A model generated the notes under the pieces. The model was not told where the DNA came from. It did not search any database and saw nothing but the letters and a program-made list of their open reading frames with translations. A stretch of 64,000 nucleotides of DNA from Collinsella intestinalis DSM 13280. GTDB taxonomy: Bacteria; Actinomycetota; Coriobacteriia; Coriobacteriales; Coriobacteriaceae. Below are positions 27,821 to 62,699 of the stretch, one piece after another. Position numbers and translations under genes: made by a program. The number at the start of each line of letters is the position of its first letter. Position 1 is the stretch's first letter. The stretch is taken from contig NZ_GG692711.1 of the NCBI RefSeq assembly GCF_000156175.1, positions 85,119-149,118 on the forward strand, given 5' to 3'.

Positions 27821-28062
27821 AAGCGAGCCTCATGGGCTCGCTTCTTAATTTCGACTGGCGGAGAGCTGGGGATTCGCCGGGCGGCTGGCGCCGCCCTCCT
27901 CCCGCTGCGCGCCTGCGGCGCTTGCGGGCTTCGCTGGAAAACGGCTCCGCCGTTTCCTCAGCTCCGCACCCCTAATGGGGTTCGAATCCACGGAGCGGCA
28001 ACAAAAAAGCGAGCCTCATGGGCTCGCTTCTTAATTTCGACTGGCGGAGAGCTGGGGATTCG
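27821..28062 (-). repeat. tRNA-Ser(GCU)-associated element with 56-bp flanking direct repeats
   Basis: A perfect 56-bp repeat (27821-27876 and 28007-28062) contains the tRNA 3' end from the T-loop outward plus the tRNA terminator hairpin. Between the copies lies a GC-rich element whose ends are GGATTCG (27870-27876) and CGAATCC (27983-27989), i.e. the two halves of a T-arm in inverted orientation. The interior forms several stems. Bases 27901-27942 are identical, in reverse complement, to 62576-62617 beside the other tRNA-Ser gene. Confidence 0.85.
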
Positions 28063-28133
28063 AACCCCAGAAGGGCTTTGCGGCCCTTACTCGCTTAGCA
28101 GGCGAGCACCTTCGGCCTCTCGGTCAGCTCTCC
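28042..28133 (-). tRNA. tRNA-Ser(GCU)
   Basis: The minus strand reads GGAGAGCTGACCGAGAGGCC at the 5' end. The anticodon stem CTCGC/GCGAG encloses loop CTGCTAA (anticodon GCT), followed by a long class II variable arm, T-arm GGGGTTCGAATCCCC, acceptor GCTCTCC, discriminator G and encoded CCA. Confidence 0.97.
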
Positions 28134-59280: not shown

Positions 59281-59357
59281 TGGTGCGGCGTACAGGATTC
59301 GAACCTGTGACGTTCTGATTCGTAGTCAGACCCTCTATCCAGCTGAGGTAACGCCGC
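59281..59357 (-). tRNA. tRNA-Arg(ACG), copy 1
   Basis: Minus strand GCGGCGTTACCTCAGCTGG start, anticodon loop CTACGAA between TCTGA and TCAGA (anticodon ACG), T-arm CAGGTTCGAATCCTG, acceptor complement ACGCCGC, then A and encoded CCA. ACG needs A34-to-inosine editing by TadA. Confidence 0.97.
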
Positions 59358-59495: not shown

Positions 59496-59572
59496 TGGTG
59501 CGGCGTACAGGATTCGAACCTGTGACGTTCTGATTCGTAGTCAGACCCTCTATCCAGCTGAGGTAACGCCGC
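59496..59572 (-). tRNA. tRNA-Arg(ACG), copy 2
   Basis: Identical in sequence to copy 1 over the whole tRNA, so the duplication is recent or kept identical by conversion. Confidence 0.97.
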
Positions 59573-62390: not shown

Positions 62391-62480
62391 GGAGAGATGG
62401 CAGAGCGGTTGAATGCGGCGGTCTTGAAAACCGTTGAGCACGCAAGTGTTCCGAGGGTTCGAATCCCTCTCTCTCCGCCA
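62391..62480 (+). tRNA. tRNA-Ser(UGA)
   Basis: GGAGAGATGGCAGAGCGG start, anticodon loop CTTGAAA between CGGT and ACCG (anticodon TGA), long class II variable arm, T-arm GGGTTCGAATCCC, acceptor complement TCTCTCC, G and encoded CCA. Confidence 0.97.
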
Positions 62481-62493
62481 GGTTGATTGCAGA

Positions 62494-62520
62494 AGCGGGC
62501 CCGAACGGCTCGCTTTTTTG
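62494..62520 (+). terminator. terminator of tRNA-Ser(UGA)
   Basis: AGCGGGCC and GGCTCGCT form a stem with a G:T pair, followed by TTTTTTG, 13 bp after the tRNA CCA. Confidence 0.85.
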
Positions 62521-62531
62521 TTGGCCGCATA

Positions 62532-62658
62532 GGGATTCGAACCCGCAAGGGTGCGGAGCTGAGGAAACGCGGAGCGTTTTCCAGCGAAGCCCGCAAGCGC
62601 CGCAGGCGCGCAGCGGGCCGAGGGCGGCCAAGCCGCCCGGCGAATCCCTCTCTCGCCA
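62532..62658 (+). repeat. tRNA-Ser(UGA)-associated element and copy of the tRNA 3' end
   Basis: It starts with an inverted T-arm (GGGATTCGAACCC, 62532-62544), continues with stems AAACGCGGAGCGTTT and GGGCGGC/GCCGCCC plus a GC-rich core, and ends with CGAATCCC and a near-copy of this tRNA's 3' end (CTCTCTCGCCA). Bases 62576-62617 are identical to the element next to tRNA-Ser(GCU) at 28 kb (reverse complement). Confidence 0.85.
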
Positions 62659-62669
62659 AGCTGATTAAA

Positions 62670-62699
62670 AAAGCGAGCCCGGAAAGGCTCGCTTTTGTC
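62670..62699. terminator. bidirectional terminator after the element
   Basis: AAGCGAGCC and GGCTCGCTT pair around CGGAAA. Plus strand continues TTGTC; minus strand continues TTTTAATC. It resembles the tRNA terminator at 62494 and also ends the TetR gene at 62701 on the other strand. Confidence 0.85.

Follow-up and report, generated by a model that had tools for sequence, protein, structure and literature searches.

The repeats at the tyrT locus of E. coli have been known for decades, and to our knowledge their origin and role have been unclear for as long. At tyrT/tyrV there are four RtT units (RF00391, rttR), in which an arm, GGGGAAGGAT, is complementary to the repeated tRNA end, ATCCTTCCCC, together with hairpins and a tRNA 3' end that includes CCA. 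RtT copy number varies among E. coli strains; among the E. coli matches listed, 1 to 4 units are annotated behind tRNA-Tyr, and the lowest-coverage record that was checked is another tRNA-Tyr locus. RtT has also been reported near other tRNA genes in Pasteurellaceae (PMC4986893), and a similarity to interspersed repeats has been described (PMC2965389).

The element described here is a folded sequence of about 110 bases just 3' of a serine tRNA gene in the gut bacterium Collinsella, within a window of 64,000 nucleotides (the whole stretch of DNA that was analysed). It resembles RtT in its position behind a tRNA gene, its organization in tandem units (178 bp in RtT), the repeated tRNA 3' end, the complementary upstream arm and the hairpins between them. 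It differs from RtT in that its core sequence is unlike, its hosts are many tRNAs and tmRNA, a terminator-like hairpin lies between the tRNA and the element, its arm covers the T-loop, and comparison reveals movement between tRNAs. With tRNA-targeting integrative elements (islands, prophages) it shares a target reaching from the T-loop to the 3' end of a tRNA or tmRNA gene, a host gene left intact and regenerated, and a direct repeat in the form of a partial tRNA copy at the far end. In contrast to these it is gene-free and measures about 185 bp, one core family serves many tRNAs, an inverted T-arm copy is present and units occur in tandem; the roughly 110 bp between T' and T3' are too short for an integrase gene. 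Integron cassettes (attC) are likewise short units in tandem arrays, with a folded site closed by end pairing and half of one end derived from the neighbour, but attC is a single hairpin whereas the Collinsella element is a four-hairpin junction, and its T-loop sequence GTTCGAA does not fit the integron core site GTTRRRY. REP/REPIN sequences are also short, hairpin-forming and non-autonomous; in contrast, the Collinsella element is strictly targeted to tRNA/tmRNA genes, has host-matched ends and is unlinked to RAYT genes. Finally, its arms follow the host tRNA, unlike the constant terminal inverted repeats that belong to a MITE.

Layout and fold of the element behind tRNA-Ser(UGA)

The general order is tRNA gene, trailer with terminator, T', a core of four hairpins and T3' (Table 1). 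The complete element spans positions 62,531-62,649 of the window, and the diverged repeat of the tRNA-Ser(UGA) 3' end and terminator comes next. All 14 of 14 positions of the inverted copy at 62531-62544 are complementary to the T-arm at 62455-62468. The terminator-like hairpin at about 62493-62519 was recognised by eye and was not called in a consensus scan; other weak Rfam matches on this copy are the tRNA gene itself or appear chance-like. Across the family the core measures roughly 85-105 bp, and a 34-nt word from it occurs exactly twice in the window, against zero occurrences expected by chance.

Table 1 Features of the two element copies, in window positions
Feature	Position	Strand	Basis
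tRNA-Ser(UGA), host gene, intact; T-arm 62455-62468	62391..62480	+	ARAGORN, Rfam
Trailer: terminator-like hairpin (about 62493-62519), then short spacer up to T'	62481..62530	+	sequence
T' (AGGGATTCGAACCC): host tRNA T-arm copied inverted; 5' arm of closing helix P1	62531..62544	+	14/14 inverted repeat; T' matches the resident T-loop family-wide
Mobile core, hairpins P2-P5	62540..62640	+	MFE fold z -5.05, covariation, model match 122.7 bits
T3': host tRNA 3' end, partial copy starting in the T-loop; first bases form the 3' arm of P1	62641..62658	+	direct repeat
Second trailer and terminator-like hairpin, diverged	62659..62696	+	whole repeat 79% identical to first copy
tRNA-Ser(GCU), host of the other copy	28042..28133	-	ARAGORN
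T' (27976-27989) and core of the other copy	27877..27989	-	94/107 aligned core columns identical
Distal tRNA-Ser(GCU) 3' end, trailer and terminator	27821..27876	-	56/56 identical to 28007-28062

A copy with the same plan lies near 28 kb, at tRNA-Ser(GCU). The initial annotation had described the 62-kb locus as a second copy of this element at tRNA-Ser(UGA), with nearly exact coordinates, and the two copies do occupy the same relative position at different tRNA genes. The sharing of sequence that it noted is real, although the longest exact match between the copies is 43 nt and not 42. It had also placed both boundaries in the T-arm: the right one does lie in the T-loop, but the left one is not the T-arm of the tRNA itself but its inverted copy, some 50 bp past the tRNA. 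The diverged tRNA-Ser(UGA) 3' end and terminator that it reported downstream are present at 62641-62695, with 79% identity. Its expectation that the ends could be defined by comparing copies was justified; the terminal sequences are those of the resident tRNA, and the mobile part is therefore only the core between T' and T3'. Its view that the insertion is older than that at 28 kb is plausible from the repeat identities (79% versus 100%), but these cannot be used as a clock: dating from repeat divergence is merely indicative, because the distal repeat escapes the constraint that preserves the tRNA and because repeats can be exchanged. The perfect 56-bp repeat around the 28-kb copy reflects either a very recent event or exchange between the repeats. 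Elsewhere in the window, two tRNA-Arg(ACG) genes at 59281-59357 and 59496-59572 are 215 bp apart and have near-identical trailers; this pair is a simple gene duplication from which the element is absent.

In the fold, T' pairs with T3' to form helix P1, which encloses the four hairpins. The window copy folds with -75 kcal/mol (z -5.05), and the remaining copies have z values of -2.9 to -6.8. Compensatory change is seen at 33 of 41 pairs in a set of 98 distinct sequences, compared with a mean of 18.2 for shuffled controls (0/500) and 12-24 for slid structures; the count is far outside both controls. The proportion of paired cells in these 98 distinct sequences is 89.7%, a value that is biased upward because the model had guided the alignment.

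In G014, the closest relative tested, the tRNA-Ser genes share 99-100% identity with their counterparts in the genome of the window. The tRNA-Ser(UGA) site of G014 is empty and has the matching gene downstream, which identifies the element as an insertion. The tRNA-Ser(GCU) gene of this relative is likewise without an element, and the downstream DNA there differs. In the window's own genome (G000), 51 tRNA genes comprise two with complete elements, both in the window, two with truncated ones and 47 with none. The truncated elements (C3:1317680-1317825 and C3:898136-898174) lie behind tRNA-Lys(UUU) and tRNA-Val(UAC), and the repeated tRNA end is absent from them.

Distribution, host genes and matched ends

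By BLAST, 31 of 34 other Collinsella genomes contain the element and 0 of 23 other genomes of the order do, and a pattern scan over named genomes gives matches in Collinsella only. The covariance model R1 reaches other orders, with matches in 27 of 149 genomes and 9 of 78 Coriobacteriia genera and up to 16 copies per genome; a search with R1 of 246 genomes drawn across the phylum gave no match beyond Coriobacteriia. In the additional fetched genomes, 59 of 59 match regions lie directly 3' of a same-strand tRNA (57) or tmRNA (2) gene. The hosts are 23 tRNA isoacceptors plus tmRNA, so that "tRNA-Ser element", as the initial annotation had it, is too narrow an identity. At the tmRNA (ssrA) loci L320 and L351 the inverted arm, GAGAATCGAACTCC, matches the tmRNA T-arm. 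The element sits in one orientation downstream of its host gene, and the host tRNA is intact. Coding DNA behind tRNA-Ser(GCU) in four genomes (G003, G008, G010, G030) was considered as an autonomous version and rejected, as it consists of ordinary chromosomal genes. In the openly licensed literature we found no description of the family, of its tRNA-matched ends or of its mobility.

The ends follow the host gene. Of 147 units, 125 have a T' that is the reverse complement of the T-loop of the host gene, against a permuted mean of 53.8 and maximum of 68, and at tRNAs with a minor T-loop T' matches exactly in 46 of 54 cases and has the majority form in none (0). Two elements that lie 411 bp apart in G088 have cores differing at 2 positions, while their T' and T3' differ exactly where the T-loops of tRNA-Gly and tRNA-Leu differ. 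Across genomes, tRNA-Gly(CCC) of G034 and tRNA-Ala(UGC) of G015 carry cores that share 88 of 97 columns, with T' sequences (GGACTCGAA and GGGATCGAA, respectively) that each match their own host. In all, there are five such pairs, each made up of cores that are 88-95% similar and stand at different tRNAs in different genomes, and in each of them T' follows its own host; T' has one mismatch in two of the four further pairs, as do a few T' family-wide.

Similar cores thus occur at different tRNAs across species with T' tracking the resident gene, which indicates that the core moves and that the target is the source of its ends or the sequence to which they are corrected. With the C. aerofaciens group left out, the nearest foreign relative of a core is at another tRNA for 61 of 82 cores; the 21 same-tRNA nearest neighbours are nevertheless commoner than chance (permuted mean 7.3). 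Both inter-tRNA movement and same-site inheritance therefore occur, and part of the spread is same-site inheritance or exchange. Matching ends could instead arise after arrival, through gene conversion of cores among resident elements or through selection on the closing helix. Such core conversion between residents could imitate movement inside one genome, less easily across genera.

Readings of the origin of the element

On balance we lean towards the view that the element is mobile but non-autonomous and specialises in tRNA/tmRNA 3' ends, with termini that are templated by the target. A single-stranded copy would land on any T-arm, since T-loop sequences are nearly universal. Its 3' arm would act as a primer, so that the 3' end of the resident tRNA and a variable stretch beyond are copied, yielding the direct repeat; the resident T-arm would serve as the template from which the 5' arm is written or against which it is corrected. 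Recombination between repeats would later give rise to tandem units and losses. The element itself codes for no enzyme; no transposing enzyme was found among the RAYT-like Y1 and reverse transcriptase genes examined, and no intermediate was found. Reverse transcriptases were rejected as the mobiliser: no more than 11 of 42 genomes have them, and the copy-rich genomes G015, G016, G021 and G034 lack them.

Another explanation, which we consider unlikely, treats the unit (tRNA 3' end, terminator, T' and core, about 185 bp in all) as a site-specific integration cassette that is inserted by a tyrosine recombinase acting in trans with crossover in the T-loop, like tRNA-targeting islands or in an integron-like manner, arrays being built by serial integration. 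The layout is that of tRNA-integrated elements, with a regenerated host 3' end and a partial copy at the far end, and attachment at tRNA/tmRNA genes is classic. However, there is no integrase gene in the unit, and a cassette leaves unexplained how T' comes to match the new tRNA whenever a core switches tRNA. The trailers bear on both sides. Of 55 non-redundant loci, about 20 have two near-identical, hence local, trailers, which speaks against a cassette; in about 13 of the 55 the trailers are unrelated and little is repeated past the tRNA end, as would be the case for an incoming unit with a trailer of its own. The orthologous tRNA-Val loci of C. aerofaciens, which combine different terminators in different strains, also favour it. 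Taken together, the trailer patterns point to a local duplication, variable in length, and subsequent recombination; they are also compatible with serial integration. A native-trailer comparison at tRNA-Ser(GCU) of G033, once taken as support for cassette integration, was dropped, as the comparison loci in G024 and G027 apparently carry prophage DNA. In these two genomes tRNA-Ser(GCU) appears to be a prophage attachment site, and G033 has similar sequence beyond its element.

We think it decidedly improbable that tRNA operons have inherited the element vertically as a structured RNA, in line with a proposal made for RtT, with processing from the tRNA transcript, T' and T3' co-evolving under selection on the fold and patchiness due to loss. 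Strong covariation is what such an RNA would show, and the E. coli RtT RNA is described, in a study cited in PMC4986893, as released from the tRNA transcript. Against this, Collinsella usually has a terminator-like hairpin between tRNA and element, the nearest cores are mostly at other tRNAs, and sister genomes differ in the presence of the element.

Mobilisation of a REP/REPIN-like repeat by a RAYT (Y1) transposase is very doubtful. Y1 genes are present in most Collinsella and were not found in G001 and G031, both element-free by BLAST; on the other hand, none was found in the window's own genome or in G032, both of which carry the element. The 20 RAYT regions examined have other repeats in their flanks and no element at the gene, the sole element near a RAYT sits behind its own tRNA, and REPINs do not target tRNA ends. 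The Collinsella RAYT-like Y1 genes (L376-L395) have short flanking repeats of their own, which differ from gene to gene (e.g., GTTGGGGACGTGTTCC and CTCAGATTAGGGACAGGCAC). We give equally little credence to the idea that the element is a remnant of prophage or island attachment sites: tRNA 3' ends are commonly used for attachment and some empty tRNA-Ser(GCU) loci (G024, G027) apparently precede prophage DNA, but a single folded, covarying core stands at 23 isoacceptors without gene remnants, a search of 50,697 phage records gave no match (0) and the core pattern was not found in viral contigs. Among phages, viral contigs and plasmids, no carrier was found apart from one 900-kb C. aerofaciens record.

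Relation to RtT and significance

By covariance score the Collinsella element is not a member of RtT. The RtT model, with a gathering cut-off of 45 bits, has no match in the window's own genome (E<=1) or on the window copy (E<=10). The best score in the genus, 24.4 bits, is below this threshold, yet the match is full-length and falls exactly on an element in G007. At least one further sub-threshold match, in G018, was set aside as chance, as neither a tRNA nor an R1 match is present there. In the reverse direction, when R1 is run unfiltered on the E. coli locus, all four RtT units are within the top five matches, with scores of only 6.8-9.5 bits. In its layout, the Collinsella element has the RtT feature of a host tRNA 3'-end repeat paired with an upstream arm. 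Tandem arrays behind the tRNA, which in RtT consist of units of about 178 bp, occur in relatives with a spacing of mostly 180-203 bp, and the copies in the window are single units. The Collinsella element and RtT thus share a plan, and common descent is possible.

These results suggest that the element is an unrecognised mobile element whose plan is related to the E. coli tRNA-locus repeat. More tentatively, and with appreciable doubt, it might represent a class of bacterial mobile DNA that includes the E. coli tyrT/RtT repeats and in which the terminal repeats are rewritten from the target at each insertion, as an inverted T-arm on one side and a direct tRNA 3' end on the other; one core could then settle at any tRNA or tmRNA gene and leave it undamaged. 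Such target-templated termini would be a mode of insertion for which we know of no other example. For genome annotation, the extra tRNA 3' ends may mislead the prediction of attachment sites and genomic islands. If the termini are indeed templated by the target, this would account for harmless insertions at essential genes. The many hosts including tmRNA, the clean empty sites and the cores that hop between tRNAs make the question of the origin and role of the tyrT repeats testable by comparison.
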